Both the position numbers and the translations under genes were made by a program. From Alphaproteobacteria bacterium (GTDB lineage Bacteria; Pseudomonadota; Alphaproteobacteria; Rickettsiales; JABCZZ01), in the NCBI GenBank assembly GCA_013288335.1, contig JABDCC010000016.1, positions 1-33,120 on the forward strand: DNA of 33,120 bases, in the 5' to 3' direction. The notes below the pieces were generated by a model, which saw only the letters and a program-made list of their open reading frames with translations, was not told where the DNA came from and ran no database searches. Positions within the stretch are counted from its first letter, which is position 1. Each line of letters begins with the position of its first letter. Shown piece by piece: positions 702-27,677 of this stretch.

Positions 702-1352
702 ATGAAATTTTATTTGCGTATGGCTATAGTTTGCATAGGCACGGCACTCTGTTTTTTTTCGCAACCGGCAGAAGCGCTTCAATCCTATTTTATTAACAAT
801 GAAATTGAAGCAAACAACATTGAAATGTTTCCAAAATGGACGGAAATGTTAGGGCACTATAATACAGAATCCCATCAATTAGATGGCGTATGCGGTAAGC
901 AGCAATACAGCACATGTAAGTTAAAAGAATGGAAGGAGTTTGTGGAAGGGCTTCGTGGTAAACCGCGCCTTGCGCAGATGAATGCAATCAACCGGTTCGT
1001 CAATAAATACCCCTATATAGAAGATATAGTTAATTGGGGGGTGGAGGATTACTGGGCGGATGTCTATGAGTTTCAGAGAAAGAGCGGTGATTGTGAGGAT
1101 TACGCTATTGCAAAATTTATGTCACTTCGTGCACTCGGTGTACCCGATGACGATATGCGCATAGAGGTGGTGCAGGATCTGAACCTTGGAGGGATCTTGC
1201 ATGCTGTTCTGATTGTATTTGTGGATGACGATGTATACGTGCTCGACAACCAGATAAAGCAAGTGGTTAAAGCAGTCGACATTTATCACTATAAACCGAT
1301 TTACTCTATTAATGAAGAGCACTGGTGGCAGCATATAATGATTCAACAATAA
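702..1352 (+). CDS. LapG-like periplasmic transglutaminase-like cysteine protease (BTLCP family)
   Basis: This 216-residue protein has a Sec signal peptide (residues 1 to about 25, ending PAEA) and is predicted periplasmic. The bacterial transglutaminase-like cysteine protease signature is clear: GDCEDYAIAKF with Cys131, LHAVLIV with His167 and YVLDNQ with Asp182 form the Cys-His-Asp triad. Acidic residues around the Cys (Asp130, Glu132, Asp133) fit the calcium site described for LapG. In Pseudomonas, LapG cuts surface adhesins (LapA, and the type Vb adhesin CdrA) near a di-alanine site and is held inactive by the c-di-GMP receptor LapD. Here the gene lies 66 bp upstream of a membrane receptor gene and in the same direction as a two-partner-secretion adhesin whose C-terminus carries PAAG motifs, so that adhesin is the probable substrate (inference). 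Two further cysteines (64 and 72) lie in the N-terminal half. The ribosome binding site is weak. Confidence 0.85.
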   Translation: MKFYLRMAIVCIGTALCFFSQPAEALQSYFINNEIEANNIEMFPKWTEMLGHYNTESHQLDGVCGKQQYSTCKLKEWKEFVEGLRGKPRLAQMNAINRFVNKYPYIEDIVNWGVEDYWADVYEFQRKSGDCEDYAIAKFMSLRALGVPDDDMRIEVVQDLNLGGILHAVLIVFVDDDVYVLDNQIKQVVKAVDIYHYKPIYSINEEHWWQHIMIQQ

Positions 1353-1371
1353 GTAATCTTGATTTACTTAT

Positions 1372-1394
1372 ATTTATATACCGCCTATATAAAT
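1372..1394 (+). other. Perfect 9-bp inverted repeat between protease and receptor genes
   Basis: ATTTATATA (1372-1380) and TATATAAAT (1386-1394) flank the loop CCGCC. The hairpin sits in the 66-bp gap between the protease stop and the receptor start. It may be an operator, an RNA processing hairpin or a weak attenuator. No T run follows. Confidence 0.4.
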
Positions 1395-1418
1395 GAACAG
1401 GATCAATAACCAAGTATA

Positions 1419-3551
1419 ATGCTAATGACTCCTTTTAATAGAACCCTGCCGCAATTAAAGAAGCCTTCCATAAAACCTTCGACCCTTGCGTTACTTGTTG
1501 GCGCATTGGTGATTATAGGTGTGATTCTAATGTTGCGTTTCTCAGCAGCAGAAGAGCAGCGGGAGCTTTTGCACTGGCAGAATAAGTTAAATTTAATTGC
1601 TGATAGTCGTACAGCAGATATAAGCAGCTGGCTTTCTCGTAATTTTCATGAATTAGAGGGCGTTGCAAGCAATCCGTCATTGCAATTATATGTCACTGCA
1701 CTGGAAAATGAGAAAAATCCTGGGGAGCTTTCACAGGAAGAGCCCGCTCAAGCGGTTTTTCTGCGCAACTTACTTTTAATGACGGCAGACAGATTGGGTT
1801 TTTTAAGCAAAACCCCCGATGCACTCAAAGCGATAAACGCTAATGTCCATAACGCCTCAGGCACCGGACTTGCGATTGTTGATAATCAGGGAAAAATTTT
1901 AGTTTCGACGGAAGGATTATCTACATTAAGCTCCGTAGTTGCGCAAAAAGTTGCGGACGCTCCCCGTGGGCAATCTACTTTGATTGATTTATTTGTATCT
2001 CCCACAGGGGAAACGCAAATAGGATTTGTAATACCTATTTATCCCATTCAGGGAGAAGCGGTTGCCGAACAGCAAATAGGTAAGCTCGTGGGTATAAAAA
2101 CCGCAGGCGACGATTTCTTTAAATTACTCGAGCATCCCGGTGTAACGGACAAAACATTGCAGGCGGTTCTGTTGCGCAAAGAAGATAGTAATGTGGTATA
2201 TATTTCTCCGATTAAAGACAGCAAGATGCTCGCTACTCGCTTTGCGTTGGATACTGCAGGACTGGATGCTGCTTTCGCAATTGCCTCACCGGGAACATTT
2301 GCCGTCAAACATGATCGACTGTCGCATACTGTGCTTATGACGAGCCGTCTCATTACCAATGCTCCGTGGACATTATTGTTAGCGGTGGATCGTGATCAGG
2401 CTCTGATGGAAAGCGATGATTGGCGCATCAAAACCGAATTTATTATGTTTGTTGCGATACTCGCATTTGTCGCGAGTATTATTGCGGCCTGGTGGTATGG
2501 CACTTCACGGCGCGCGATGCTGCTATCGGCACAGACAGCCCATTTGGCAGCGCATTCTATCGCACAGGAAAAATTGTTGCGCCTTGTCACCGACAATCAG
2601 CCATCGCCTATATTTATTGCCGATAAAAATAATATCGTGCGTTTTGCAAACACAAAAGCGGCGGAAGATTTTCACATTCCGGCAACCGATGCGGTTGGGA
2701 AAGATCTGCCTTCTTTGATGGGGAGCGCTGCCGCTAAAATATATGTAGATATTAATAGGCAGGCGTTAGATACAGGCAAAATGCTTACCGATACGCACCG
2801 TACTGAAGGCAAAAAACCCGCAGTCATACGTTCAGAGCATTTACCTCTTGCTCATATACCCATAGATAGTCTTCCTTTTCCGTCGCCGGGTGTATTAGTC
2901 ATCAAACAAGATGTAACGGATATTGTAACAGAGCGGGAACGCCGTGTTCGTACACTGCATCACCTGGTGGATACATTGGTAAGAATGGTGGACGAGCGCG
3001 ATCCTTATTCCGCAAATCATTCCGCAAATGTTGCTTTTCTTGCGCGCGAGATAGGGCAGGATCTTTCTATATCCCTTGAACTTATTGAAACAGCGGAAAC
3101 AGCAGGAAAGCTGATGAATATAGGAAAGATTCTGGTTCCAAGTAATATTCTAACAAAATCTTCTTCGCTTGCAAAAGATGAAATAAAAACTATTCGGGAC
3201 TCTCTAAACGAAAGCATTACTGTTCTTGAAAAAATAGAGTTTGATGGTCCCGTTGTCGATACACTGAAACAAGCACCCGAACACTTTGATGGTAGTGGCC
3301 CATTACAATTAAAAGGTGAAAATATTCTGATTACAGCGCGCATCATAGCGGTTGCAAATAGCTTTATAGGAATGATTAGCCCTCGCTCGTATCGCTCTGC
3401 TATTACTATCGAGCAGACGGCCACCTTATTATTGCAGGATAACGACAAACAATTCGATCGCCGTGTCGTAATAGCACTTATCAATTTCATTGAGAATAGA
3501 AATGGTAAGAAACTCCTTATCGAGTTGCAGGCGGCTAATAAATTAAAATAG
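1419..3551 (+). CDS. Membrane receptor: double-Cache-like sensor, PAS, degenerate HD-GYP domain
   Basis: The product has 710 residues. A first membrane helix (about 22-40) and a second (about 340-360) enclose a roughly 300-residue periplasmic domain that looks like a double Cache sensor. A PAS-like domain (about 385-505) follows, then a region similar to HD-GYP c-di-GMP phosphodiesterases (about 510-690). HD-GYP landmarks can be followed (VDERDPYSANHSANVAFLA, ILTKSSSL, EHFDGSGP, ARIIAVANSF, RSYRSAI), but the metal ligands are mostly replaced. The HD pair is Met566-Asn567 in KLMNIGK, the HHE motif reads APE at 619-621, the tyrosine of GYP is missing and the late VAD is VAN (Asn646). I therefore infer an inactive, possibly ligand-binding domain rather than a phosphodiesterase. 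The position directly after the LapG-like gene suggests a LapD-like control role, a guess from context. The start could also be Met3 at 1425. Confidence 0.75.
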   Translation: MLMTPFNRTLPQLKKPSIKPSTLALLVGALVIIGVILMLRFSAAEEQRELLHWQNKLNLIADSRTADISSWLSRNFHELEGVASNPSLQLYVTALENEKNPGELSQEEPAQAVFLRNLLLMTADRLGFLSKTPDALKAINANVHNASGTGLAIVDNQGKILVSTEGLSTLSSVVAQKVADAPRGQSTLIDLFVSPTGETQIGFVIPIYPIQGEAVAEQQIGKLVGIKTAGDDFFKLLEHPGVTDKTLQAVLLRKEDSNVVYISPIKDSKMLATRFALDTAGLDAAFAIASPGTFAVKHDRLSHTVLMTSRLITNAPWTLLLAVDRDQALMESDDWRIKTEFIMFVAILAFVASIIAAWWYGTSRRAMLLSAQTAHLAAHSIAQEKLLRLVTDNQPSPIFIADKNNIVRFANTKAAEDFHIPATDAVGKDLPSLMGSAAAKIYVDINRQALDTGKMLTDTHRTEGKKPAVIRSEHLPLAHIPIDSLPFPSPGVLVIKQDVTDIVTERERRVRTLHHLVDTLVRMVDERDPYSANHSANVAFLAREIGQDLSISLELIETAETAGKLMNIGKILVPSNILTKSSSLAKDEIKTIRDSLNESITVLEKIEFDGPVVDTLKQAPEHFDGSGPLQLKGENILITARIIAVANSFIGMISPRSYRSAITIEQTATLLLQDNDKQFDRRVVIALINFIENRNGKKLLIELQAANKLK

Positions 3552-3833
3552 CCCCTATCACTTGGTTTTCGAGACAAATACATGTGATATTTGCATCACT
3601 CACGGTTAACGCTTTATGTTTTTACAGGATCTTGGCATTTAAGCGGTAGCTCCCGAAATTCCCTTACAATTCTGTGCTTTGTGTAGATTATTTGGTGTCT
3701 TTAAAACAGGTTTATCACATAGCCCGAGCAATTATAAATGCTTTACTTTCGGGGGTTATTTTACTAATAATACCGCTAGAATTTTGGATTTAATGTAAAT
3801 AATTACTATTAATCAAATAATTAGGGTGCGACA
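3552..3833 (+). other. 282-bp gap before the TPS transporter gene; contains a stem-loop
   Basis: No gene is visible. CCCGA (3723-3727) can pair with TCGGG (3749-3753), with AGCA/TGCT pairing possible inside the loop. An AT-rich stretch follows up to the ribosome binding site AGGGTG in front of the ATG at 3834. The gap probably contains the promoter of the two-partner-secretion genes. I looked for a recognisable c-di-GMP riboswitch and did not see one. Confidence 0.35.
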
Positions 3834-5516
3834 ATGAAACGCCTACTTCGCCTGAATGTCGGTATTATATTGGCTATTATTGCTATGCCTGGTTTGGCAG
3901 AAGCTCAAATAAGGCCACCAACTACCACTCAGCCTGGTCAGGTGCAGCAACATCTTCAAATACAAGAAGAGCGCCCTGCGGTTAGTGAAGAGCCGCTTAT
4001 CACGTTGCCGGAAGAAGGCGGTAAGCACAAAGCCCTTAAGGGTGAAGCAACCTTCATATTAAAGGGCATTGATTTTGAAAATGTTACGGTCTTCAAAAAA
4101 GAAGATTTTCTCCCCGATTATGAAGCTTACCTTGGTAAAGAAGTAAGTCTTAGCACATTGCATGAAATTGCTTTTAAGATCACTGCGCAATACCGTAATG
4201 CTGGTTATATTCTTTCCAAAGCTGTCGTGCCGCCGCAACAAATAGGCAAAGATGGCATTGCTAAAATACGCATAGTGGAAGGCTATATAAACAAAGTGGT
4301 TTTCGAGGGAGTTCCTGCTACTGGCCTCTTGGCTAAATACGCAGATCACATTCGCAATGCGAAGCCTCTGGATGCTAAAATGCTTGAGCGGTATCTCTTG
4401 CTGATGAATGATCTTCCTGGTGTCACTGCACATGCAGTGCTTCGTCCTGCCACAGATGCGCCCGGAGCCTCTGATGTAATTATAACCATTTCTGAGAAAT
4501 CTGTGGATGGCTCAGTAACGCTGGATAATCGCGGCACTCGTTTTATGGGCCCTATTCAGGCTGGGGTTACTGTAAATGCTAATAATATGCTTGGATTATA
4601 CGATCGCACGCAGTTCCATGGTGTTATGACTGCTCAGGAAAATGAATTGCGCTATGGGCAGGTGACCCATGAAGAACAACTTGATAGTGATGGAACTAAG
4701 GTGGCTCTCAGTGCTGGCTATACACGTACGCATCCTACTTACACGCTTGATCCTTTTGATGTGCAGGGTTGGGACAGAGTGTACTCTGTGAATGTTTCTC
4801 ATCCGTTTATCCGTTCACGTCAATCCAACCTGTATGGCAATATTCAGTTTGACGCACATGACACTGCGGTTGATGTGTTGACCACCCAGCTTTACGATGA
4901 CCATCTGCGTGTTTTGCGTGGCGGTGGCTCTTATGACTTTATTGATATGTTCTCAGGCGTCAATAAAATGCAGGCTACATTGGCTCAGGGACTTAGCTGG
5001 GATACCAGCAGCAGTGATGTTCTTTCACGCGCTAACGGTCAAACCAACTTCTTCAAAGGCACTGCGCAGGTAAGCCGCCTTCAGACCATTAAGGGCCCGT
5101 TTGATTTCTATATCGCCGGTAGCGGTCAGTGGTCAGCTGATTCACTGTTGATCGGTGAACAATTTGGTATTGGTGGTGTGGATTTTGGCTCAGCTTATGA
5201 TCCATCTGAATTGACCGGTGATTCAGGTGCGGCAGGGCGCGCGGAAATTCGTTATAACCGAAATGGTGATTTTGTGCTGATTCCTAGTTACCAGCTTTAT
5301 ACTTTCTATGACATTGGCAAAGTATGGAATCGTGATACGCCTACTGGTTCAACGGCTTCTCTTGCAGATGCCGGGTTTGGCTTTCGCTTTAATGCCGAAG
5401 CTCCGCTTTCCGGTGCACTTGAGTTTGCTGCTCCCCTTACTAAGGTAGTGGCGGCAGATGGAACTCGGGACGGGTACGACCCACGGGTGTTCTTCTCCTT
5501 GGCGTACCGTTACTAA
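3834..5516 (+). CDS. Two-partner secretion outer-membrane transporter (TpsB; FhaC/ShlB/CdrB type)
   Basis: The 560-residue protein starts with a signal peptide (1-24, ending LAEA). A proline/glutamine-rich linker follows to about residue 65, where FhaC-type proteins have a plug helix. A POTRA domain spans about 73-150 (ILKGIDFENV, ITAQYRNAGYILSKAVVPPQ, IAKIRIVEGYI), then a beta-barrel runs to the end, closing with the aromatic C-terminus FSLAYRY typical of Omp85-superfamily barrels. The region GEQFGIGG near residue 443 occupies the place of the conserved VRGY loop motif and FYDIG near 490 the place of the F.D.G motif. It should recognise the TPS domain of the adhesin encoded next and thread it through the outer membrane. 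A ribosome binding site (AGGGTG) precedes the ATG. The transported partner is the gene at 5820. Confidence 0.92.
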   Translation: MKRLLRLNVGIILAIIAMPGLAEAQIRPPTTTQPGQVQQHLQIQEERPAVSEEPLITLPEEGGKHKALKGEATFILKGIDFENVTVFKKEDFLPDYEAYLGKEVSLSTLHEIAFKITAQYRNAGYILSKAVVPPQQIGKDGIAKIRIVEGYINKVVFEGVPATGLLAKYADHIRNAKPLDAKMLERYLLLMNDLPGVTAHAVLRPATDAPGASDVIITISEKSVDGSVTLDNRGTRFMGPIQAGVTVNANNMLGLYDRTQFHGVMTAQENELRYGQVTHEEQLDSDGTKVALSAGYTRTHPTYTLDPFDVQGWDRVYSVNVSHPFIRSRQSNLYGNIQFDAHDTAVDVLTTQLYDDHLRVLRGGGSYDFIDMFSGVNKMQATLAQGLSWDTSSSDVLSRANGQTNFFKGTAQVSRLQTIKGPFDFYIAGSGQWSADSLLIGEQFGIGGVDFGSAYDPSELTGDSGAAGRAEIRYNRNGDFVLIPSYQLYTFYDIGKVWNRDTPTGSTASLADAGFGFRFNAEAPLSGALEFAAPLTKVVAADGTRDGYDPRVFFSLAYRY

Positions 5517-5819
5517 TAGTTTTTTTTATATTTAGCATGCCATGGGCTCAGACGACAACGAGCCACAAGTTTTGTAATCCATTATTATAGAACGATTATT
5601 AGGCGCTTATTCTATAAAGGCACCCAATAATTATTAACAAATTATTAATTATTTGTTAATAATTATTGCATACTCATTAGTATTCCTTTAAGAACTTTTC
5701 CACATTGCTCATTTATTAATAATCTGTTAATGAATTCAGCCCCGTTAGCGGACGATAACATCGCTTAGGACATATATTTGCTATATTAAACAGTTAAACC
5801 AATAACATAAGAGTTTTAT
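5517..5819 (+). promoter_or_regulatory. Regulatory gap before the adhesin gene
   Basis: This AT-rich, 303-bp intergenic stretch holds no gene. A run of eight T follows the TpsB stop codon. In the middle is the long inverted repeat reported separately (5625-5668). The last 100 bases are rich in TATATTAAA/TTAATG-like words suited to a promoter, but I cannot fix -35 and -10 boxes with confidence. AAGAG about 8 bases before the ATG at 5820 serves as the ribosome binding site. Confidence 0.4.
5625..5668 (+). repeat. 44-bp AT-rich palindrome with perfect 18-bp arms
   Basis: The left arm CAATAATTATTAACAAAT (5625-5642) is the exact reverse complement of the right arm (5651-5668); the centre TATTAATT (5643-5650) is itself nearly symmetric. 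It lies between the TpsB stop and the adhesin start. It could be a regulator-binding site, a cruciform, or an RNA hairpin that sets the ratio of transporter to adhesin. No T run follows the right arm, so simple intrinsic termination is less likely. Confidence 0.85.
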
Positions 5820-8800
5820 ATGAAAACGTCTAAATCCCGCCTTTACAGCAGCTCTTCTCTTTATACAGGTTTCATTGCGAGTGTGGCGTTTTCTATAGCG
5901 GGGTTTGGGAATATATCTGATGCTCTTGCGAATCCGCAGGGTGCCACTGTAACGTCAGGGCAGATTTCAATTACGCAGAATGGCACTAATGAAATCATTA
6001 CTCAATCCACAAATAACGCCATTATTAATTGGCAGAATTTTGATATTCTAAACGGCGAATCCACCCGTTTTATACAACCTTCATCCGGATCAGTTGCCCT
6101 TAACCGAATCAACAACGGAAATCCGACCGAGATCCTTGGCTCTCTTTCTGCCAATGGTCACTTGATGCTCATTAACCCTAACGGCATATTCTTCGGAGCT
6201 GGTTCTACAGTAAATGTAGGCGGCCTCATCGCGAGCACTGCTGATATCAGCGACAAAAATTTTAACGCCGGAAATTACAAATTTAATCACGCAGGCAACC
6301 CAAACGCGACTATCATTAATAAAGGTGTTATCACGGCTGCGCAGGGCGGTCTTATAGCGCTCGTTGCACCTGGTGTGGAAAATGACGGCATCATCAGTGC
6401 AAAAGTCGGCACGGTTGCACTCGGCGCAGCAAAAACTTTCACGATCGATTTCTACGGAGATAATCTCTACAGCTTCTCACTTGGTGCCCCCACTACTGCG
6501 CATACTAAAGACGCAAACGGAAACACACTTTCTGCAGCACTTGTTAACAAAGGACTTATTTCTGCTCAAGGCGGCAATGTTTATATGACCGCACGTGCAG
6601 CAGGATCACTGGTAAATGATGTAATCAATAACACAGGCATCATAGATGCGACTGCGTCTCATAAAGGCAAGGGCGGTTCGATCGTAATCGATGGCGGTAA
6701 TAATGGTACCGTAAATATAGCCGGAAATCTCAATGTTTCTGGCAAACATGCTGGTCAAACGGGTGGAAATATTACGGTTGTTGGTAAGCACATCACCCTT
6801 GAATCAACTGCCTCATTGAATGCAAGCGGCGCAGCGGGCGGCGGACAAGTAAATGTGGGTGGCAGTGCGCACGGAACTGGACCTCTGCATAATGCTGATA
6901 CTGTAACCGATGATGCAGGCAGCGTAATAAATGTAAGCGCACTGGATAATGGTAACGGTGGTACTGCAGTTCTTTGGTCTAATGTGGATACTGAATTTCA
7001 CGGCAATATTCTTGCCCGTGGCGGAATCAATGGCGGCAATGGTGGTTCTGTGGAAACTTCCGGTCATTACTTAAATGCAACCGGTGTTGTTAATGCAAGT
7101 GCTGCAAACGGAGCTGCAGGCACATGGCTGCTTGATCCCTGGAATATCACCATCGAAGATAATTCCGGAAGCAATGTTAACAATAATGGTGGCCCAGGCT
7201 TTAAAGCGACCGGCACTTCTATTGTTGATACTTCTCTTCTTGATGCCGCGCTCACCGGCGGCACAAACATCACTATAAAAACCGGCGCAGCGGGTTCGAC
7301 TGGCGCGGATGCTGGCGTTATAACCGTTGCTAACAATGTTGTCTCGACTGGCAGTGCCAATCTGACATTAGATGCTGCTAGCAATATTATCCTGAATTCC
7401 AATGTTGGAATTTCTGCTGGTGCAGGCCAGACGCTCGGCGTGACATTGGATGCCGGCAATAACATTGTATTAAATAGCGGTTCGTCCATCAACTCTGGCG
7501 GTGGAAAAGTGGTGCTGAATGCCGATACCGGTAATGTTGGTAATGGCTATATTTATATGGACTCAGGTTCATCCATTCACTCCAACGGCGGCAATATCAC
7601 ACTGAGCGGCGCTTCGGGTGATGTTAACTTCGGCGGCGTGTCGGTTGGTAATTATTATGGTGGCGGTGCAACCATCGATGCAAGCGGAACGACAACAGGC
7701 GGAAATATTAAAATCACCGGAACAGCGGCAACAAGCAATGGCACCTATTGGGATGGCATTGACGTAGTATCCGGATCACAGATATCTACAAATAACAAGG
7801 GCACGATCACGCTCGTTGGGAACAGCAGTTCTGGTGATAGTAGCAGCACCGGTGGCAATAGCAGCGGTATTTACATTCGCAACAGTTCGGTAACGGCTCA
7901 GGATGGTAACATTAACATTACCGGAACGGGTCTTGGAACTGGCGCTATACCAGACTTTGGCATTATTTTTGATAACGGAACTGTTTCTACTAACGGCACT
8001 GGAAATATTAGATTAATAGGCACTGGCGCAGCAGGTGCGGCGGGCATCGTAAGTGGTGGCTATGGTTATAATGCCGCGACTCTTGGTGGGGCTTCGGATC
8101 AAGGAAATATAACATTGAATGCAGATTCTTTGTCTCTTGCCGACGATACAATACAAACCACTAAAACCGTGACCTTCGCTCCACTTACAGCGAGCACAAC
8201 CGTTGGTGTAAATGATGCGGGCAGCGCACTTGATATTACACAAGCGCTATTAAACAGTATTAATGCTCCAACTGTAACCATCGGTAATAAAGCAGATACC
8301 GGCATACTCACCGCAGGTACCTTTACATGGGAAAATGCTCTTACTGCACTTAATCTCGTCACAGGTGGTGACATTGTAATAAATGGCAGCATAACCAATA
8401 CGAACACAACTGCCGGTACACTTTCTGCACATGCAGGTGGAAACATCACTGTAAACAGCACTGGATCAATATCTTCCACAGGCGCGGCGACAGGCGTAAC
8501 ACTTGATGCTGATGTTGCAGGTGCGGGCGGATATATTTTTATGGATACGGGCTCTTCTATCGTTTCCGATGGGGGCAATATCACGCTGGGTGGCGGAAGT
8601 AATGCGTTTAACACTGCTGCTGTATCTGGAAATTCAGGTCTTGGCGGTATTACACTCAATGGCAATAACACACTGGATGCACGTGGTAGCAGCAAAGGCG
8701 GAAATATTTCTCTGCTCGGAACTGCATATCAGGGCGATAGCCCCCTTGACGGCCTCGATATTTATGGTGGCGCAACTATTGAAACCAACCATGCAGGCAA

Positions 8801-11800
8801 TATTACGCTTAATGGCACAGGCGCAACCGGAAACAGCGGTGGCTATAACAGCGAAGGTCTGAATCTTCAGGATGCAACTATTTCAGCTGAAAAAGGTAAT
8901 ATCAACCTCACAGGTACCGCAAAAGGAACCACACTCATTGATTACGGTATAGAGTTTGATGATAATACCATCACGACTACCAGCGGCAATATTACCTTAA
9001 CGGGCACTGGCTCATCCGGCGCGCAGGGTATTTATAACAATATCGGATATAATACCATTGGAGCAGCGGGTTCTACGGAAACCGGAACGATACAATTCAA
9101 TGGTGATTATTTTACACTTGCCAACAACACTATACAGACCAAAGGCAATATCAATATTCTGCCAACAGGAACTGGCACCACTGAAATTGTTGGTGATAAC
9201 AGCAATATCAGCGCTGGCAAAACTCTTACCATTAATGCAAGCAATGGCAGCCTTACTTTCATTGAGGATTTTGTTAATCTTGCTGGCAACACAATTTCAA
9301 TCATAAGCCCTGATACCGTTACTTTCAAACCCCTTACAACGACTACAACCGTTGGGGTTAACGACTCAGGTAGCGCGTTGGATATAACTCAGGCGCTTTT
9401 AAACAGCATTTCTGCTCCGACTGTAACTATCGGTGATAAGGCGGATACAGCGGCACTCACAGCAGCTAGTTTTAGTTGGGAAAATGCACTCGCTGTACTC
9501 AATCTGATTACTGGCGGTGATGTTAATGTTAACGGTACTATTACCAATGCAAATGCAAATACAGGCACTCTTTCTGTACAAGCAGGCGGAAATATTAATG
9601 TAAACACGGGCGCATCCTTCTCTTCAACAGGTAACGCAACCGATGTTATACTCGCAAGCGGTGGCGCGGTTTCTATGGGTAGTGGATCGTCCATCAATTC
9701 CAATGGTGGCGATATAACACTGGGCGGCAATGGCGGTGGCGCGGCAGTATCTGCGATTGATGGCACTGCAGGCATCACACTTAACAATGCTGCACTAAAT
9801 GCATCCGGTGGCACAATCACTCTTACCGGTACAGGCGACGCAAGTGGCGTATTATCTGGTAATGATGGCATTTTATTGGCCAATGGAAGTACGATTCAGA
9901 CCAACGGCGCTGGCCAGATCAATCTCACCGGTATAGGTGGCGGTAATGCTGGCAATAGCGGGTTTAATAACGGTGTAGAAATACACGGCAGCGGCACTCA
10001 GGTAAGCGCTGTAGATGGAAATATTACAATTTCCGGCACTGGCGGGCTTGATACAGGTAACATTGATGAAGGCGTCGCGATTTATGGTGGCGGCAATGTG
10101 CAAAGCAATGGCAAGGGCGATATTAATATCAATGGTATTGGCGGTGGAACGGGAGTCAGCACTGACGACATCGGCGTTGGAATCTATGCAATTGCGCTCA
10201 ATGATGGTACCGGCATTTTTAGCAACGCTAGCGGGAATGTAAATATTAATGGTTATACCGGAACACAAAATTCCGGTAGCAGCACCGATTACTACAACGC
10301 AGCAGTTTACATCAATGCACCCGTACACAGCGTCGATGGCAATATCCTGATTCAAGGTAATACCGGCGGCACTGGCACCCTTAACACGACTGCAGGTAGT
10401 GGAAACTTTGGTATCACCACTCATAATGCAACTGATATCGCTGCAAGCGGACTTGGTTCTGTAACCTTAGAAGGTGTGGCAGCAGGTTCTGATGCAACCA
10501 ATACCGGCATTTCTTTAAATGACGGTGCACGGATTGCAACAAACAGTGGTGATCTTACAATTAGCGGTACTGGTAATGGCGCAAGCAGCGGCATAGTTGT
10601 GGCTTTGGGTAGCGATACGCCAAATGTCAGCAGCACGATTTCGAGCAACACTGGTAATATCAATGTTAATACCGGAAGCGGCGATCTCACGAGCACTTCC
10701 AGCAATATAAATACCAGTGGAAACATAACGCTTGCTTCAAACGGCAATGAGACTCTAACCGACGGCAATGTAACTGCTGGTGGTGCCGTAAATATTAATG
10801 CAAACAATAACCTCTCAATCACCGGAACGGCTATTAGTGGTGGTAGCATCACTATCGATCCTACCAATGTTTCCCTGTCAAATCTGACGCTCAATACCAG
10901 TGGTGGCGATGAAGATATTCAGGCCCTGAACGATATTACATTGAGTAATGTTCAAATTAACACCAGTGGTGGCAATGTTATACTTGGCGCCGATGGATCG
11001 GGTATCAGCGGTGCGGTTGCATTGACTTCAGGCACCTCTATTGTATCGGATAATGGTAATATAGCGGTGGGTGCGGGCGCAACAGGACTTGGCGTTGCCA
11101 AAGGCGATGCAGCTAATCCACAAGGCGTCCTTCTGGACAACGCTACCCTCAATTCCGGTAGCGGCAATATTTCCGTAAGTGGTCATGGTTATTCGAACAA
11201 CGCTGTTGCTAACCTTGACGGTGTACTGATCGAAAACGGTTCACAGATTGCTAGCACCAGCGGCAATATAACCCTTCACGGTGTTGGCGGAAAAGGCAAC
11301 GTGGACGGATTCAACTACAGCGATGTAGGTGTTTATCTACGTGACAGCTCCGTCTCAACTACAAATGGCGCTGTGACTATCACCGGTTCTGGTGGCAGTG
11401 GAACTTCATCATACAACGCAGGTATAGCGCTTGATCAAAACGCCAGCATTACTTCTACCGGTACGGGCGTCGGTGTTGGAACCGTTAGCCTTCTGGGTAT
11501 TGGCGGCGCTAATTCGTTTGGTGGATACGGTGTAAGTTGTGAACTTTGCACAATGTCTACTGTTGATGGCAATTTAAATGTTGCGGGTATTTCTACTGGC
11601 ACTGCATCTTCACTTTATAACGATGGTGTTGTACTTTATTCTCCTTCTTCATCGCTATCAGTAACGGGCGCGGGTAACCTGATTGTTACCGGAAAAGCCG
11701 GCAATGGCGGTGCTGATATACGCTTCGGTGGCGCATCAATTGGTTCGGCTACTGATACCGGCAATATTGTTTTTAATGCCAATAATTTACTCATTGATAG

Positions 11801-14800
11801 TAATCCTACCATCACCACTGGCGGCAGAGTCGTTTTTGCTCCACGCACTGTGGGCACGACAATAGGATTCGGCGGCACTTCCAATACCAGCGGTAGCTCA
11901 CTCTACATTTCGCAGGCATTGATGGATAGTATCAACGCACCGATTGTTACGATTGGTAAATCACTCGTGTCAGGATTGCTGACCACAGATAGTTTCAATT
12001 GGGAAAGCACGCTCAATAGGCTCAATCTTATCGGTGGCGATATTCTGGTTGGTGGCGCTATTACGAATGCAACTGCAACAAACGGAACAGTCGTTGCGAC
12101 CGCATCAGGAAATATTAACTTTAATTCCGCAGGTGCGATCAATTCTACAAATGCTGCAACCAATGTGATTCTTACCGCAGATACAGGATCGATTTTCATG
12201 GATACCGGTTCGTCAATCCTTTCCAATGGTGGCAACATTTCGATGACTGGGGTGTCTAATGATGTAAACTTACCGGGTGTTTCTATCGGTAATTATTACG
12301 GTGGTGCGGCCACTGTTGATGCAAGCGGAGCAACAACCGGCGGCAATATTCATATTGCAGGCACGGCAGCAATCGGCAGCACGGAGTGGGACGGTATCGA
12401 TATCGTATCAGGCTCACAGATCTCAACAAACCATAATGGCAATGTCGTATTTGTTGGTTACGGCAGCACGGGCGATAACACCAGCTCCGGTGGAAACAGC
12501 AATGGTGTTTATCTGCGCAACAGCTCGGTAACTACGCAGAATGGAAATATCAACATTGCCGGCACTGGTCAGGGTACCGGAAGCACTCCAGATTACGGCA
12601 TTGTTTTTGACAATGGTTCCGTCACCACAACCGGTACTGGAAATATCTATCTCAACGGTACAGGTGCAGCAGGTGCGGCTGGTATATTAAGCGGCAGCAA
12701 TGGGTATGGAAGCGCTACTATCGGCGGTAACTCCGATCTTGGTAATATAGGGCTCAAAGGTAATGTGATTTCTCTTACCGATGCTACTATCAACACCGGT
12801 GGCACAGGTAATATATACCTCTATGCTACCGACAACGCACTATATAGTGCGGGCTCTATAAATTCAGCTCAGGGTAATATAGGCATTCGTGGTGCAACCA
12901 CGCTTTCTGAAAATGTAACCAGTGCAGGCGGTAATATCTATTTCAAAGATGCATTAACCCTCGGCAGTGATCCCACTGTAAGTTCTGGCGGTGGAAGCGT
13001 AAATTTTGCAAGCACAGTAGATGGCGCCTATGATCTGAATGTAAACTCAGGAACCGGTACCACCAGATTTAAAGGTATAGTTGGCGGCATCACTCCTCTT
13101 GCAAACCTCGATATTATTGCAGATAAACTCTTTTTTGCCGGTAACGTTTCTGGCACTGGCATGCTCACCATTATGCCATCGACCAGCACCCTCGCAGTTA
13201 ACTTGAATAACGGTAACTCAGGATTGTTCTTAAGCACTGCTGAGATCAATGATATCCAGAGCGATTGGGCTAACATAGTGATCGGCAATTCTGTAGATAC
13301 CGGTCTTTTGAGTATGGGTACTGCCACCTGGAAATCACCAGTTGATTTCTTCACAGCTAATAGCGGAAATATTGACGTAAATGGCAAACAGACCGGCACT
13401 GGCCCTGCTTCACTTACCTTTAGCGGACCTACAACGCTTGCTGCCAATATCACTACTCAGGGTGGCGATATATTGTTCAACGATGAAGTAACTCTTGGTC
13501 AGGGAGTCACACTGAACTCTCACAATGGCGATGTCACTTTTGTTGGCACAGTAGATGGCCCACATAGCTTGGCTGTAAACTCAGGTACTGGCACTACTGC
13601 GTTCGATAGTAATGTCGGTAACAATACTGCGCTGAACAATCTTACTATCACTGCTGATAATCTTACCTTCAGCAAGAAGCTGTTCGGAACAGGCGTCCTG
13701 ACTATTGCTCCGTCAACCAGCAATCTTGCGATTAATTTGAATAACGGCAACAGCGGCTTATTCTTGAGCACTGCCGAGATTAACCGTATCCAAAGTGATT
13801 GGGCTGGCATCAATATCGGCAATGTTGCTGATAGCGGCGTGATGACTTTGGGCAAAGCAACCTGGAAATCACCGGTTGATTTCATTACCGGTAACACTGG
13901 AAACATTGTGGTAAATGGTGACCAGACTGGTACTGGTGTAGCATCACTTACCTTCAGTGGCCCAACCCTTCTTTCTGCCAATGCAACCACCAATGGTGGC
14001 GATATATTGTTCAACGACGCAGTAATACTTGGCAAATCTGATACGGTTGATTCTGGAAACGGAAACGTCACGTTTGATGGTACTGTAAATGGCGCGCATA
14101 ATCTAACGGTGGATGCCGGAACAGGAACCACCACGTTTGGCGCTAAAGTAGGTGGTGCAACTGCGCTGAAGAACCTGACTGTGTCTGCTGATCATCTTGT
14201 AATCGATCATAAAATCTTCAGCACAGGTACTGTGTTGATTGAGCCAGGCAGTGTTGGTACTACCGTAGGTCTTAATGATGCAGGTAGCACGCTGGATATT
14301 ACGCAGAAGATGATGAATCGCATACACGCGCCTACCGTCACCCTCGGTAACATTGCGGATACAGGTACACTCACCACTGGTGCCTTCAAATGGGAAAAAT
14401 CTTTACATAATCTCAATTTGATTACCGGAGGTAATATTGTTGTAGCTGGCAATACCGTGGATTCAATAAAACATGATGTAGCTCTTCTTATGCAGGCTGG
14501 TGGTAACATTAACATCGACAGCAATAGTGTTATTTCTTCCAGCAAAGGCATGATGAACGTTACTGCCGATGCGGATGCGAATGGCACCGGTGGATATATC
14601 TTCATGGATACGAACTCATCCATTGCTTCTAATGGTGGCAATATAATCCTCGGTGGCGGTGCAAACCCCCTCAGCGATTATGCTGTATCCGGAGATACAA
14701 ACTTCAGCGGCATTACTCTGAATGATGCTACCCTCGATGCACATGGTCTAAGCACTGGTGGTAATATATCCTTAAACGGCGCTGCATTTAACGGAGATAC

Positions 14801-16205
14801 TGCATTGGCTGGCATCAGCATTGCCAGTGGTTCGAATCTTATCACCAACAATGGTGGAACTATTACCCTGAATGGTTTGGGAAGCACCCTGACGACTACC
14901 GGCAGTGAAGGTGTGAGCGTGCAAGGTTCTAATCTGTCTGCCGAAAATGGTAATATTACTATTAACGGAACCGGCGAAGGAACTACTGCTACGAGCAATT
15001 ACGGCATTGCGCTGGTAGATAACAACATCAACACCACCAATAGCAGTACGCTGCTTACTGGTAATAACGTATTGGTTAACAATAACGTTGTGACAACCGG
15101 TGCAGATGGATTTGATATCAGCAATAGCAGCAATATTACCCTGACCCAGAATACTCTGACTTCTACTTCTGGAGTGGGTACTGGCATCAATCTTAATAGT
15201 GATTCCGGCACGACTACTATTACCGGAAACACGCTTAATAACTTTGGTACTGGTATAAACATCAACCAGCTGGACAATGTGCAGTTTGCCTCAAACATTG
15301 TAACCGGATTCAATGGACCATTCACGATTGATCTGGTGACTGGCGCTGTCAGTGGAACAAATGGTTCTGTGGGTGTCCAGGTGACTAACAGTAATAATGT
15401 CAGCTTCTTAAACGATCAGTTTATCTCTAACCTCGTTGGCATCTATCTTGATGGATCTCCGAATGCAAAACTCAGCCAGGTATCTCTGCTGGATAATGGC
15501 ATCGGACTTCTTGTACAGGATGGTTCAGGCACCCATTTCAGCAGCAATGAGCTTGTTGGCAATACAACCTTTACCGGCGGTACCATAGGTATCGTGCTTG
15601 ACGGGCCTGGTGCTTCAATGAGTTTTGATACCACTCAGCCTAGCAGCCATTTCCAGAGCCAGACTTATTATTTCGTATTGGCAGATGGTGCGATGGATGG
15701 TAAGGTTTTGGATGCCAGCCAGCAAATCTTTAATGGTGCGCGTGCCAGTGGCTTCACTTTTGGTCCTCTCGGTCAACTTGCTGATGCGGAAAGCAGAACC
15801 ATTGATTCTCACAATAATGCAGGTGTTGGAACCGTATTCTATCGGTTTGATCCATCCGCATTTGATAATGAGGAGCTTCAAAACTCGGTAGATTCAGCGC
15901 TCGGTAAAGCATTATTCTCCTATGCAGGGCAGACCTTTGGCAGATTCGTACCTAGCCTTAGCATTCAGACCGTAAACCTGAGCTTGTTAGCATCGGGTGG
16001 TCCGAGTGTTTTTGCAAATCTGTCGCCAGCAGCCGGTGGTGATAATGCAGCTGCATTAGGAAATCTTTCCCCGGCAGCCGGTGGTGATACCGCTACCACA
16101 TTGGCATCATTATCGCCTTCAGCAGGCGGAGCTGACAGTTGTGGAAACGGATTCCTTGGTGGTGGATATACACTGAGCTACAGTGCAGGCAGCTGCGTTA
16201 AATAA
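5820..16205 (+). CDS. Giant two-partner-secretion filamentous adhesin (TpsA; FhaB/HMW1/CdrA-like)
   Basis: The 3461-residue exoprotein begins with a signal peptide (to about residue 37, DALA). A TPS secretion domain follows, with VALNRI (93-97) and LINPNGIFF (117-125), the NPNGI hallmark of filamentous-haemagglutinin N-termini. After WLLDPWNITI (about 436-445) comes a long Gly/Asn/Thr/Ser-rich repeat region predicted to form a right-handed beta-helix. Related blocks recur: about 180 residues at 7568-8118 and 12210-12750; a DITQ..N.I.APTVT.G module at about 8161, 9316, 11823 and 14227; and two tandem 178-residue units from about 13152. Parallel-beta-helix repeats of the N.(V/I)..N type occupy about 15050-15560. 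The C-terminus carries three SP(A/S)AGG motifs and the pair Cys3441/Cys3459. The only other cysteines I found are a CELC at 1907-1910. Known relatives are surface adhesins in aggregation or host attachment; the ligand here is unknown. Confidence 0.93.
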   Translation: MKTSKSRLYSSSSLYTGFIASVAFSIAGFGNISDALANPQGATVTSGQISITQNGTNEIITQSTNNAIINWQNFDILNGESTRFIQPSSGSVALNRINNGNPTEILGSLSANGHLMLINPNGIFFGAGSTVNVGGLIASTADISDKNFNAGNYKFNHAGNPNATIINKGVITAAQGGLIALVAPGVENDGIISAKVGTVALGAAKTFTIDFYGDNLYSFSLGAPTTAHTKDANGNTLSAALVNKGLISAQGGNVYMTARAAGSLVNDVINNTGIIDATASHKGKGGSIVIDGGNNGTVNIAGNLNVSGKHAGQTGGNITVVGKHITLESTASLNASGAAGGGQVNVGGSAHGTGPLHNADTVTDDAGSVINVSALDNGNGGTAVLWSNVDTEFHGNILARGGINGGNGGSVETSGHYLNATGVVNASAANGAAGTWLLDPWNITIEDNSGSNVNNNGGPGFKATGTSIVDTSLLDAALTGGTNITIKTGAAGSTGADAGVITVANNVVSTGSANLTLDAASNIILNSNVGISAGAGQTLGVTLDAGNNIVLNSGSSINSGGGKVVLNADTGNVGNGYIYMDSGSSIHSNGGNITLSGASGDVNFGGVSVGNYYGGGATIDASGTTTGGNIKITGTAATSNGTYWDGIDVVSGSQISTNNKGTITLVGNSSSGDSSSTGGNSSGIYIRNSSVTAQDGNINITGTGLGTGAIPDFGIIFDNGTVSTNGTGNIRLIGTGAAGAAGIVSGGYGYNAATLGGASDQGNITLNADSLSLADDTIQTTKTVTFAPLTASTTVGVNDAGSALDITQALLNSINAPTVTIGNKADTGILTAGTFTWENALTALNLVTGGDIVINGSITNTNTTAGTLSAHAGGNITVNSTGSISSTGAATGVTLDADVAGAGGYIFMDTGSSIVSDGGNITLGGGSNAFNTAAVSGNSGLGGITLNGNNTLDARGSSKGGNISLLGTAYQGDSPLDGLDIYGGATIETNHAGNITLNGTGATGNSGGYNSEGLNLQDATISAEKGNINLTGTAKGTTLIDYGIEFDDNTITTTSGNITLTGTGSSGAQGIYNNIGYNTIGAAGSTETGTIQFNGDYFTLANNTIQTKGNINILPTGTGTTEIVGDNSNISAGKTLTINASNGSLTFIEDFVNLAGNTISIISPDTVTFKPLTTTTTVGVNDSGSALDITQALLNSISAPTVTIGDKADTAALTAASFSWENALAVLNLITGGDVNVNGTITNANANTGTLSVQAGGNINVNTGASFSSTGNATDVILASGGAVSMGSGSSINSNGGDITLGGNGGGAAVSAIDGTAGITLNNAALNASGGTITLTGTGDASGVLSGNDGILLANGSTIQTNGAGQINLTGIGGGNAGNSGFNNGVEIHGSGTQVSAVDGNITISGTGGLDTGNIDEGVAIYGGGNVQSNGKGDININGIGGGTGVSTDDIGVGIYAIALNDGTGIFSNASGNVNINGYTGTQNSGSSTDYYNAAVYINAPVHSVDGNILIQGNTGGTGTLNTTAGSGNFGITTHNATDIAASGLGSVTLEGVAAGSDATNTGISLNDGARIATNSGDLTISGTGNGASSGIVVALGSDTPNVSSTISSNTGNINVNTGSGDLTSTSSNINTSGNITLASNGNETLTDGNVTAGGAVNINANNNLSITGTAISGGSITIDPTNVSLSNLTLNTSGGDEDIQALNDITLSNVQINTSGGNVILGADGSGISGAVALTSGTSIVSDNGNIAVGAGATGLGVAKGDAANPQGVLLDNATLNSGSGNISVSGHGYSNNAVANLDGVLIENGSQIASTSGNITLHGVGGKGNVDGFNYSDVGVYLRDSSVSTTNGAVTITGSGGSGTSSYNAGIALDQNASITSTGTGVGVGTVSLLGIGGANSFGGYGVSCELCTMSTVDGNLNVAGISTGTASSLYNDGVVLYSPSSSLSVTGAGNLIVTGKAGNGGADIRFGGASIGSATDTGNIVFNANNLLIDSNPTITTGGRVVFAPRTVGTTIGFGGTSNTSGSSLYISQALMDSINAPIVTIGKSLVSGLLTTDSFNWESTLNRLNLIGGDILVGGAITNATATNGTVVATASGNINFNSAGAINSTNAATNVILTADTGSIFMDTGSSILSNGGNISMTGVSNDVNLPGVSIGNYYGGAATVDASGATTGGNIHIAGTAAIGSTEWDGIDIVSGSQISTNHNGNVVFVGYGSTGDNTSSGGNSNGVYLRNSSVTTQNGNINIAGTGQGTGSTPDYGIVFDNGSVTTTGTGNIYLNGTGAAGAAGILSGSNGYGSATIGGNSDLGNIGLKGNVISLTDATINTGGTGNIYLYATDNALYSAGSINSAQGNIGIRGATTLSENVTSAGGNIYFKDALTLGSDPTVSSGGGSVNFASTVDGAYDLNVNSGTGTTRFKGIVGGITPLANLDIIADKLFFAGNVSGTGMLTIMPSTSTLAVNLNNGNSGLFLSTAEINDIQSDWANIVIGNSVDTGLLSMGTATWKSPVDFFTANSGNIDVNGKQTGTGPASLTFSGPTTLAANITTQGGDILFNDEVTLGQGVTLNSHNGDVTFVGTVDGPHSLAVNSGTGTTAFDSNVGNNTALNNLTITADNLTFSKKLFGTGVLTIAPSTSNLAINLNNGNSGLFLSTAEINRIQSDWAGINIGNVADSGVMTLGKATWKSPVDFITGNTGNIVVNGDQTGTGVASLTFSGPTLLSANATTNGGDILFNDAVILGKSDTVDSGNGNVTFDGTVNGAHNLTVDAGTGTTTFGAKVGGATALKNLTVSADHLVIDHKIFSTGTVLIEPGSVGTTVGLNDAGSTLDITQKMMNRIHAPTVTLGNIADTGTLTTGAFKWEKSLHNLNLITGGNIVVAGNTVDSIKHDVALLMQAGGNINIDSNSVISSSKGMMNVTADADANGTGGYIFMDTNSSIASNGGNIILGGGANPLSDYAVSGDTNFSGITLNDATLDAHGLSTGGNISLNGAAFNGDTALAGISIASGSNLITNNGGTITLNGLGSTLTTTGSEGVSVQGSNLSAENGNITINGTGEGTTATSNYGIALVDNNINTTNSSTLLTGNNVLVNNNVVTTGADGFDISNSSNITLTQNTLTSTSGVGTGINLNSDSGTTTITGNTLNNFGTGININQLDNVQFASNIVTGFNGPFTIDLVTGAVSGTNGSVGVQVTNSNNVSFLNDQFISNLVGIYLDGSPNAKLSQVSLLDNGIGLLVQDGSGTHFSSNELVGNTTFTGGTIGIVLDGPGASMSFDTTQPSSHFQSQTYYFVLADGAMDGKVLDASQQIFNGARASGFTFGPLGQLADAESRTIDSHNNAGVGTVFYRFDPSAFDNEELQNSVDSALGKALFSYAGQTFGRFVPSLSIQTVNLSLLASGGPSVFANLSPAAGGDNAAALGNLSPAAGGDTATTLASLSPSAGGADSCGNGFLGGGYTLSYSAGSCVK
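7568..8118 (+). repeat. Adhesin long repeat, copy 1
   Basis: This encodes roughly 180 residues from SIHSNGGNITLSG to DQGNITL. It contains VGNYYGGGATIDASG, WDGIDVVSGSQIST and GTGAAGAAGIVSG. It matches the stretch at 12210-12750 residue by residue over most of its length, indicating an internal duplication of a beta-helix segment. Confidence 0.75.
12210..12750 (+). repeat. Adhesin long repeat, copy 2
   Basis: This encodes SILSNGGNISMTG through DLGNIGL, with IGNYYGGAATVDASG, WDGIDIVSGSQIST and GTGAAGAAGILSG. It is the second copy of the 7568-8118 block, about 4.6 kb downstream. Synonymous and conservative differences show that the duplication is not recent. Confidence 0.75.
13152..14210 (+). 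repeat. Adhesin tandem 534-bp repeats
   Basis: Two consecutive units of 178 codons begin at about 13152 (GTGMLTIMPSTSTLAVNL) and 13686 (GTGVLTIAPSTSNLAINL). Each contains NNGNSGLFLSTAEIN, IQSDWA, ATWKSPVDF, TFSGPT and GGDILFND. They lie between the two long-repeat regions and the C-terminal beta-helix and probably form consecutive stalk modules. Confidence 0.8.
16020..16202 (+). other. Adhesin C-terminus: triple SP(A/S)AGG motif and cysteine hook
   Basis: Within the adhesin, LSPAAGGD occurs at residues 3401-3408 and 3416-3423, and LSPSAGGAD at 3431-3439, a spacing of exactly 15 residues. Cys3441 and Cys3459 follow and the protein ends two residues later. Known LapG sites centre on two alanines followed by glycine (TAAG, PAAG), and CdrA and HMW1 use a C-terminal disulfide loop to stay anchored in their transporter. 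The combination indicates a cleavable anchor. That the third copy is cut is doubtful because it lacks the first alanine. Confidence 0.75.
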
Positions 16206-16224
16206 CGTTAAATAAGGAACTTAT

Positions 16225-17001
16225 ATGCCTGATCGTAATGTCGCAAAAGCAGCAGATAAAACATCTGCTGCCGGTAGTTCGCCAATTTTTTTCCAAACCC
16301 CAAGACCATTGGATATAAAATACCATGCTAAATCCGGTGTGCTTCCTTCCCAGGACTTTTCTTTTGCCACAGAGACAAACTCGATTCCGATTAATGCTAT
16401 CGAGTTTGTAGAGGCCGCAAAACATTATCCTATTATATTCACCCATACGGATAATCCGATACCTGCTGTAATCCTCGGACTTGAGCGTCAGAATTACTTT
16501 GTGGATTCAAAGGGAAAATGGAAAATGGATGCTTATATTCCGGCGTATGTACGTAAATATCCCTTCATTTTCATGGATATGACAGAAACACATAAACAGC
16601 TTTTGTTATGTATTGATGAGAGCGCACCGCAATTCAAGAAGGCTGGCGGTAAAAACACCATTCCGCTATATGAGAACGATAAACCCTCCGCTATTACGCT
16701 TCAGGCGCTTGAGTTTTGCACTGCGTATCACAATCACTACATCGTCACGCGCCAATTCTGCCAGGCCATAAAAGAGGCGGATTTGCTCGAGCCTACACAG
16801 TCCAATATTAAACTTGCTAACGGACGTGAAATTAGCCTGGGAGGGTTTCAGGTTATTGACGAGAAGAAACTCAATGCATTATCCGATGATAAGATTCTTG
16901 AGTTTCATAAGAAGGGCTGGCTCCCTCTTATATATTTCTCTCTGATGTCAGCTTCTTGCTGGAAGAAGTTAGTGGATATAGCAAGCAAGCTGGAAAACTA
17001 A
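16225..17001 (+). CDS. SapC family protein
   Basis: The 258-residue protein has no signal peptide. Features such as FVEAAKHYPIIFT, PAVILGLERQNYFVD, WKMDAYIPAYVRKYPFIF, LQALEFCTAYH and LGGFQVIDEKKLNALSDD are those of the SapC family, named after a gene linked to the Campylobacter surface layer, whose biochemical role is not established. It starts 19 bp after the adhesin stop, with TAAGGAAC as ribosome binding site, so it is very likely co-transcribed with the adhesin. That position suggests a function in making, modifying or exporting the surface protein (inference). Its stop codon lies 6 bp from the end of tolA, which is convergent. Confidence 0.88.
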   Translation: MPDRNVAKAADKTSAAGSSPIFFQTPRPLDIKYHAKSGVLPSQDFSFATETNSIPINAIEFVEAAKHYPIIFTHTDNPIPAVILGLERQNYFVDSKGKWKMDAYIPAYVRKYPFIFMDMTETHKQLLLCIDESAPQFKKAGGKNTIPLYENDKPSAITLQALEFCTAYHNHYIVTRQFCQAIKEADLLEPTQSNIKLANGREISLGGFQVIDEKKLNALSDDKILEFHKKGWLPLIYFSLMSASCWKKLVDIASKLEN

Positions 17002-17007
17002 AGCCTT

Positions 17008-17814
17008 CTACAACAAATCCTTCGGATCGAAAGTCAAATCCATCTCGCGCCAGTTGCCATATTTTTCTGGCGGCAGGTTTTTGAGCGGGCTGCATTTCTG
17101 CACGGCGCGCATGGCGGAATCAGCGGCGGCGCGGAAAAAGGAATCGGAATTATAGCGGCTGTTGTCTCCGGTAAATTCCACTTTGGTCACAGTGCCATCC
17201 TCAGTTAACTCCACGTGCAAATCAATGAGCAGATTGGCAGCATCTTTCGCGCCCGCCGGAGGATACCAGCAACTCTGAAACTGATTACGTATGGAATCTT
17301 TCTCGCTCATGGAAAGTGGTTGGGTGGAATCATAATTCTCTGAGACGGCTTTATTCTGGCTGGTTTCTTTCGGCGCATCGGTCGGTTTTTTGGATTCCTC
17401 ACTTTTTGCGGTTTCCTGGACGCTCTTTAAAATACTATCGAGATCGTCTTCTTTCTTTTTAGCTTTCTTCTGCTCAGGTGGTTTTTCTTTTGTCTTCACC
17501 ACTTCTTTTGCTGGCACAGGAATGGGCTTTTCAGCAGGTTTTTCTTCTGCTTTTTTGGCTTCTACAGTTGCTTTTCTTTCGGTCTTTTTTTCTGCCTCGG
17601 GTTTCTTCTCCTGTTTTTCAGGAGCTTTTTCTTGTGGCTTCACATTGGTGATAGGAGCGATGGGAAGAATATCCACCGAAATCGCCTCTGGTTCTCTATC
17701 CAGATCGCGATGGAAGAAACTCGGCAAGCCGAAGATCAGCAGCAACAGAAAAAATCCGTGCATGGTGAGCGAATATTGAGTGCCTTTTGACATTGCTGGC
17801 ATGGATAACTCCAT
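17008..17814 (-). CDS. tolA: Cell-envelope integrity protein TolA
   Basis: The 268-residue protein has an N-terminal membrane helix (about 14-34, including the SLTMHG motif that in TolA contacts TolQ/TolR). A long charged Lys/Glu/Ala/Pro-rich domain follows (about 50-160), then a globular C-terminal domain with NQFQSCWYPPAGAKDAANL and AVQKCSPLKNLP, whose two cysteines are placed as in TolA domain III. TolA spans the periplasm and links the TolQR motor to TolB-Pal at the outer membrane, needed for envelope constriction at division. It follows tolR with a 2-bp gap. Met5 has a better ribosome binding site (GGAG, 6 bases upstream) than Met1, so the protein may start at 17802. It is shorter than the E. 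coli protein but usual for alphaproteobacteria. No tolB follows. Confidence 0.93.
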   Translation of the reverse strand: MELSMPAMSKGTQYSLTMHGFFLLLLIFGLPSFFHRDLDREPEAISVDILPIAPITNVKPQEKAPEKQEKKPEAEKKTERKATVEAKKAEEKPAEKPIPVPAKEVVKTKEKPPEQKKAKKKEDDLDSILKSVQETAKSEESKKPTDAPKETSQNKAVSENYDSTQPLSMSEKDSIRNQFQSCWYPPAGAKDAANLLIDLHVELTEDGTVTKVEFTGDNSRYNSDSFFRAAADSAMRAVQKCSPLKNLPPEKYGNWREMDLTFDPKDLL

Positions 17815-17816
17815 GG

Positions 17817-18278: not shown

Positions 18279-18279
18279 A

Positions 18280-19023: not shown

Positions 19024-19039
19024 AGTATCTTCCTCTGTT

Positions 19040-19122
19040 CAGGGGGCACGCTGCCCCCAGTTTTACTCCGTAAAACTTCCCCTGCGGGGTCGTCGTTTAG
19101 AACTCCTCCGCGTATCCACGCG
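19040..19122 (+). repeat. Dispersed palindromic element, copy A (between tolQ and ybgC)
   Basis: An approximately 83-bp unit starts CAGGGGGCACGCTGCCCCC, a strong hairpin, followed by a second hairpin TTTTAC-TCCG-GTAAAA-like, then CCCCTGCGGGGTCGTCG and AACTCCTCCGCGTATCCACG. It aligns over its whole length with copies at 25985 and 30954. It fills almost the whole 102-bp gap between ybgC and tolQ. Confidence 0.85.
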
Positions 19123-19125
19123 AAG

Positions 19126-19515: not shown

Positions 19516-19516
19516 G

Positions 19517-20199: not shown

Positions 20200-20210
20200 A
20201 GATGCTTATC

Positions 20211-20246: not shown

Positions 20247-20267
20247 GAAACTGTTATTAAGGAGGTT

Positions 20268-22790: not shown

Positions 22791-22846
22791 GATTGCTGTT
22801 TAATAAAAAATAATGATATATCTCTCTGTAATATTTAGAGATATAA

Positions 22847-24603: not shown

Positions 24604-24605
24604 TT

Positions 24606-27674: not shown

Positions 27675-27677
27675 TCT

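Follow-up and report, generated by a model that had tools for sequence, protein, structure and literature searches.

The locus described here raises the question whether a protease, a transmembrane receptor and a giant adhesin encoded side by side constitute one c-di-GMP-controlled adhesin switch, and which type of receptor serves it in place of LapD. The window, i.e. the whole stretch of 33,120 nucleotides analysed, lies at the beginning of contig 16 in a draft genome of 1.47 Mb. Since this genome is no more than about 67% complete, the assembly could lack a further adhesin or receptor. Downstream of a tRNA-Met gene (502–577), five consecutive genes coding for a protease, a receptor, TpsB, TpsA and SapC are arranged in this order on the + strand, all of them at the positions read in an earlier note on this DNA. 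The intergenic gaps amount to about 280 bp between the receptor and TpsB genes and about 300 bp between the TpsB and TpsA genes, and therefore a single transcript or one operon comprising the five genes is not established; a scan for sigma-70 promoters and terminators performed no better than chance level. The flank at 17008–30950 carries ordinary genes, i.e. a − strand ORF, ExbD, ExbB, RuvB, a dicarboxylate symporter, an MlaE-type permease with ATPase, MFS and oligopeptide transporters and a ribosome-binding GTPase.

The first gene (702–1352, +) encodes a cysteine protease of the Peptidase_C93/BTLCP family (PF06035, 73.9 bits; Pfam cut-off 27), whose sole matches in a sequence search of the PDB are 4fgo and 4u65, both LapG-type periplasmic cysteine proteases. 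Its N-terminus reads like a signal peptide. The Cys-His-Asp triad, previously noted as intact, consists of C131, H167 and D182, which are unchanged in an alignment of 13 relatives, and the catalytic cysteine resides inside the segment D130-C131-E132 (1089–1097, +), which corresponds to the Asp-Cys-Glu calcium motif of DvhG. The three features characteristic of LapG/DvhG-like BTLCP proteases (family, triad and calcium motif) are thus all present. Since the score against the NCBIfam LapG equivalog NF045674 (96 bits) is below the curated cut-off of 320, we refer to the protein as a LapG-like BTLCP protease and not as LapG itself. Two cysteines N-terminal to the catalytic domain, C64 and C72, are invariant in seven aligned receptor-linked proteases and missing from some proteases without a linked receptor; a disulfide between them is possible.

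The second gene (1419–3551, +) encodes a receptor with TM helices, for which Pfam reports PAS and HD_5 matches; the match to dCache is sub-threshold (17 bits vs a threshold of 45) and is supported by structure matches. A PDB sequence search retrieved DvhD first (9rc0, E 4.5e-38; 9rbz, E 8.8e-35), a catalytically dead HD-GYP receptor of c-di-GMP which controls the protease DvhG in Desulfovibrio vulgaris Hildenborough (PMC13090378). In the AF2 model (46 sequences, pLDDT 87.5), the PAS/HD-GYP region is best matched by 9rc0 (Foldseek E 8.6e-16; Z 25.2, 294 residues), the HD-GYP region by 9rbz (Z 23.4) and the dCache region by 9rc2 (Z 21.3, rmsd 3.2 over 244), the next-best dCache structures reaching Z values of 17.7–18.5. 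As judged from sequence and predicted structure, all three regions are closest to DvhD of D. vulgaris, and the model also contains the break in the first dCache helix (residues 84–85) found in DvhD, where the second part of this helix has been proposed as the contact site for DvhG. The receptor accordingly has the DvhD-type architecture of TM helix, periplasmic dCache, TM helix, PAS and degenerate HD-GYP domain; the HAMP-GGDEF-EAL module forming the cytoplasmic part of LapD is absent from it, PAS and HD_5 being found instead.

The second hallmark of the DvhD type, loss of the HD-GYP metal ligands, is seen in 67/67 receptors of an alignment comprising the window receptor and 66 others. The HD motif is never H-D in any of them, being replaced by M566-N567 in the window (3114–3119, +), and the later HD-GYP aspartate is an asparagine in 66 of the 67. 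The contacts to c-di-GMP (DvhD numbering) are largely kept, i.e. R650 in all 67 receptors, P567 in 64, L577 in 62 and M646 in 57. The window receptor itself retains Y523, P567, L577, M646, R650 and Y652; K582 is replaced by Ile and Y621, the GYP tyrosine, is deleted, so that its nucleotide binding may differ. Because the metal ligands are lost and most nucleotide contacts are kept, the domain is regarded as a dead HD-GYP domain which, by comparison with DvhD, probably still binds the nucleotide.

Whether protease and receptor belong together was analysed in 263 genomes of the order, which represent a sample of it. The protease is found in 36 and the receptor in 33 of these genomes, and both co-occur in 30 (hypergeometric P 4e-30). 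Where the two are encoded on the same contig they are always adjacent (26/26 pairs within 1.21 kb; 15 co-directional, 11 divergent), and the other four co-occurring pairs lie on separate contigs of draft assemblies. Of the co-occurrence of protease, receptor and TPS genes proposed as a check in the earlier note, that of protease and receptor is found in 30 genomes. A wider set of 80 named loci, derived from the protease alignment and overlapping in part with the survey, spans Alphaproteobacteria (including Sneathiella, Kordiimonas, Dongia and Roseospirillum), Chromatiaceae and Sulfuricella; the receptor is positioned at most 1.3 kb from the protease in 61 of them, and contig ends cut several others. 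Six genomes carry the protease without a DvhD-like receptor or LapD, namely G020 (L071), G022 (L059), G026 (L060), G033 (L061), G040 (L072) and G078 (L291), and four of these six loci adjoin TPS genes. Proteins with GGDEF domains are encoded in 36/36 protease genomes vs 143/227 others (P 3e-7), and three of them in the window genome.

A normal LapD elsewhere in the genome, named in the earlier note as a finding that would speak against its reading, was not detected, as the LapD_MoxY_N profile (PF16448) has no match in the window genome, about 67% complete. A LapD in this part of the genome was consequently rejected as the partner of the protease. Among the 263 genomes the profile matches once, in G150 (contig C128, L294), which indicates that the LapD search works in this order. 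The immediate neighbour of the gene in question is a LapG-like gene of more remote similarity, and the two probably form a conventional Lap pair.

Genes three and four code for a two-partner secretion (TPS, type Vb) pair, composed of the outer-membrane transporter TpsB (3834–5516, +) with POTRA_2 and ShlB domains and, adjacent to it, the giant adhesin TpsA (5820–16205, +; 3461 aa) with an N-terminal TPS domain (TIGR01901, E 5.1e-21). The C-terminus of TpsA reads NLSPAAGGD..NLSPAAGGD..SLSPSAGGADSCGNGFLGGGYTLSYSAGSCVK and contains, in line with the previously noted PAAG motifs and cysteine pair, two PAAG motifs (16026–16037 and 16071–16082), one PSAG motif as a degenerate copy (16116–16127) and the cysteines C3441 and C3459 (16140–16196; all +). 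LapG and DvhG cleave the sequence [T/A/P]AAG between its two alanines (PMC13090378), and a cysteine hook holds the adhesin CdrA in the barrel of CdrB (PMC7616799). By sequence reading, the three motifs are candidate cleavage sites and the cysteine loop a candidate periplasmic anchor, corresponding to the CdrA-like arrangement in which an AAG site near the C-terminus precedes a terminal cysteine pair. The DP element and the targeting helix known for LapG substrates are not evident in the tail.

For the comparison between genomes, the TPS domains of the order were located, the genes retrieved and their ends read, a readable TpsA end being required; a tail was defined by a [PTAS]AAG site among the final 75 residues with two cysteines after it. 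Seventeen of the 24 protease-bearing genomes have such a tail vs 0/29 protease-less ones (Fisher P 1e-8). Two of the frames, in G103 (L216) and G117 (L207), were chosen automatically and possibly do not represent genuine TpsA ends; both were kept and count against the association. G078 was scored negative in these statistics, and its tail, read afterwards, is positive. When the protease label is shuffled inside families, the association persists (P 0.008), although this value rests on contrasts in f1, f5, f22 and f29 and corrects for phylogeny only partly. The closest comparison is with G002, a genus-mate lacking the protease, whose TpsA ends with a cysteine pair and no AAG nearby, and G011, G056 and G083 carry the tail on one alone of several complete TpsA proteins. 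Six further tails (G003, G102, G123, G078, G116 and G028) all have AAG sites before two cysteines; G028 combines tail and receptor with no protease detected.

The core LxP[AS]AGG was counted in 49 copies from 25 genomes, with one, two, three or four tandem copies in 9, 9, 6 and 1 genomes, respectively; as the search pattern fixed L/I, P, A and G, only the copy number and the other positions count as evidence. The commonest spacing between the tail cysteines is 17 residues (25 genomes). Exemplified by the TpsA ends of G003 (L288), G044 (L077), G078 (L291) and G129 (L286), the copies vary from one to four as if gained and lost between genomes.

The fifth gene (16225–17001, +) encodes SapC (PF07277, 214 bits), which often neighbours TpsA, TpsB, protease or receptor genes, as in the window and at L066, L074, L075, L077, L118, L133, L143, L178, L289, L291, L297 and L299. 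It has no sequence match in the PDB, and its model (5 sequences, pLDDT 67.7, low confidence) no Foldseek match at E <= 0.001. One idea is that SapC might act on TpsA from the cytoplasm as an accessory protein, by analogy with HMW1C and HMW1.

The genes for protease, receptor, TpsB and TpsA cluster at one place in the window and likewise in G067 (L297), G137 (L133/L206) and G056 (L296/L280) and at L118. In G011 (L066, L236) receptor, protease, SapC and TpsA genes are present as far as the contig end, and parts of the locus are found in G028, G117, G022, G026, G033 and G078 and at L178. In two others, G025 and G044, protease and receptor are adjacent but the TPS genes lie at a distance. The description of the locus as self-contained in the earlier note thus applies to the window, G067, G137, G056 and L118 but not to G025 and G044, and of the neighbourhood conservation it had put forward as a check, the adjacency of protease and receptor is kept, whereas the TPS linkage is frequent but not constant. 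Given the unlinked TPS genes of G025 and G044, we regard the protease-receptor pair as the stable unit, with an adhesin that is commonly, though not invariably, linked to it. A DvhD-type switch with a TPS adhesin recurs in several families of the order, sometimes as one locus. Co-occurrence, adjacency, the adhesin-tail association and the lack of a detected LapD together uphold the previous claim that protease, receptor and TPS adhesin belong together, and the degenerate HD-GYP receptor probably replaces LapD, as had been suggested. Such a replacement is not in itself novel, as it is already published for DvhD/DvhG (PMC13090378).

The variable TPS linkage bears on a different reading, according to which the DvhD/DvhG-type module is real but mainly serves another adhesin, e.g. 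a type I adhesin encoded elsewhere, its proximity to TPS genes being incidental. Besides the unlinked TPS genes of G025 and G044, this would account for G049, which has the module and no TpsB or TpsA match, and for Sneathiella, where the protease-receptor pair lies beside a C39-like ABC transporter, which makes it probable that the switch acts on type I adhesins as well. At four loci of Sneathiella and a related MAG (L156, L160, L164, L177), a second, divergent protease-receptor pair is located about 5 kb off, with the transporter between the two pairs. However, the AAG and cysteine-pair tail follows the protease across genomes and within families, the TPS linkage is repeated in several families, and LapB/LssB-type secretion was rejected as the real partner, since 0/41 genomes contain a match to a T1SS of the LapB/LssB type above the cut-off; we therefore consider an incidental linkage unlikely.

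Two other explanations concern the individual components. The tails of TpsA, with their high content of G, A, N, P and S, might be ordinary low-complexity linkers in which AAG is a compositional coincidence, any release of TpsA proceeding by other means. We consider this highly improbable in view of the occurrence of the tail in 0/29 protease-less genomes, including G002 with its cysteine pair and no nearby AAG, and of the tandem repetition of the core, even with the preset L/I, P, A and G positions disregarded. The receptor, in turn, might be mainly a dCache ligand sensor or still a phosphodiesterase instead of a c-di-GMP effector, as dCache domains often bind small molecules and the window receptor is devoid of the GYP tyrosine. 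This appears quite improbable to us, because the metal ligands are lost in every aligned receptor and DvhD, with the same losses, binds c-di-GMP without hydrolysing it (PMC13090378). A periplasmic ligand is possible as a second input of the receptor.

Based on sequence, predicted structures and analogy, we consider it likely that the locus is a c-di-GMP-controlled retention and release switch for the TpsA adhesin, and propose the following scenario. TpsA would be exported by TpsB until its end is held in the periplasm behind the disulfide-closed cysteine loop, whereby the adhesin stays on the cell. At high c-di-GMP levels the presumably dimeric DvhD-type receptor would bind the nucleotide via its catalytically dead HD-GYP domain and, in analogy to DvhD, restrain the protease through the PAS domain, the TM helices and the dCache domain. 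Upon a drop in c-di-GMP the protease would be freed and cut one of the tandem LxP[AS]AGG copies preceding the cysteine loop, after which TpsA could slip out, cutting and release being modelled on LapG/CdrA and DvhG/DvhA. Weighing against this scenario are the changes at K582 and Y621 of the window receptor, the DP element and targeting helix not evident in the tail, the six protease genomes devoid of a DvhD-like receptor, the unlinked TPS genes of some relatives and the incompleteness of the window genome.

In the proposed switch, two halves described separately so far, a DvhD-type switch and a CdrA-type adhesin, come together. This suggests that receptors, proteases and adhesin classes can be exchanged like modules, in which case a search for LapD would underestimate how widespread the c-di-GMP-controlled release of adhesins is. 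For the order, whose best-known members are intracellular, it also points to a regulated attachment to surfaces among environmental relatives. Two families of the order, f12 and f19, are made up mostly of small closed genomes, in keeping with Rickettsiaceae and Anaplasmataceae; the window genome probably belongs to an environmental family of Rickettsiales. Tentatively, and with somewhat more doubt than conviction, we extend this to the view that, in Alphaproteobacteria, receptors of the DvhD type widely take the place of LapD for adhesins of type I as well as type Vb, and that environmental members of the probably rickettsial order use them to govern a TPS adhesin that has tandem sites (fail-safe or graded) and a SapC accessory dedicated to it, i.e. 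a c-di-GMP attachment programme lacking in the intracellular families of the order.

In Pseudomonas aeruginosa, according to the earlier note, the CdrA system relies on LapD as receptor, and its genes lie apart. The present system shares with it the two-partner adhesin, the C-terminal periplasmic cysteine-hook tail and the BTLCP protease (PMC4694147, PMC5422565, PMC7616799) and differs by the DvhD-type receptor, the single locus and the repeated sites. The cleavage of a TPS adhesin by LapG is as such published (PMC4694147; review PMC5422565). With LapA/LapG/LapD of Pseudomonas fluorescens it has in common the inside-out c-di-GMP signalling to a periplasmic protease, the BTLCP triad and the Asp-Cys-Glu motif (PMC3032545, PMC4359373), whereas LapA is secreted by the type I route, has an N-terminal retention module and depends on LapD, for which the sequenced part of the window genome has no PF16448 match. 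DvhD/DvhG provides the closest likeness, with a dCache-PAS-degenerate HD-GYP receptor, an adjacent BTLCP protease, an AAG-type candidate site and no LapD. In contrast, the adhesins of the Dvh system leave by type I secretion, carry N-terminal retention domains and are not TpsA proteins with C-terminal tandem sites and a cysteine loop, DvhG is membrane-anchored while the present protease looks secreted, and the GYP tyrosine deleted here is present in DvhD. A dCache-PAS-dead-HD-GYP receptor substituting for LapD is thus already known, and the class-level DvhDG map (Fig. 9b) may already cover Alphaproteobacteria; the term "two-partner" is absent from that paper, and type Vb is mentioned for P. 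aeruginosa only (PMC13090378). Our literature search, mostly without subscription papers, yielded none joining a DvhD-type receptor to a TPS adhesin. To our knowledge, what is new is the combination of a DvhD/DvhG-type switch with a CdrA-like type Vb instead of a type I adhesin, together with the one to four tandem LxP[AS]AGG sites before the cysteine loop and the frequent SapC neighbour.
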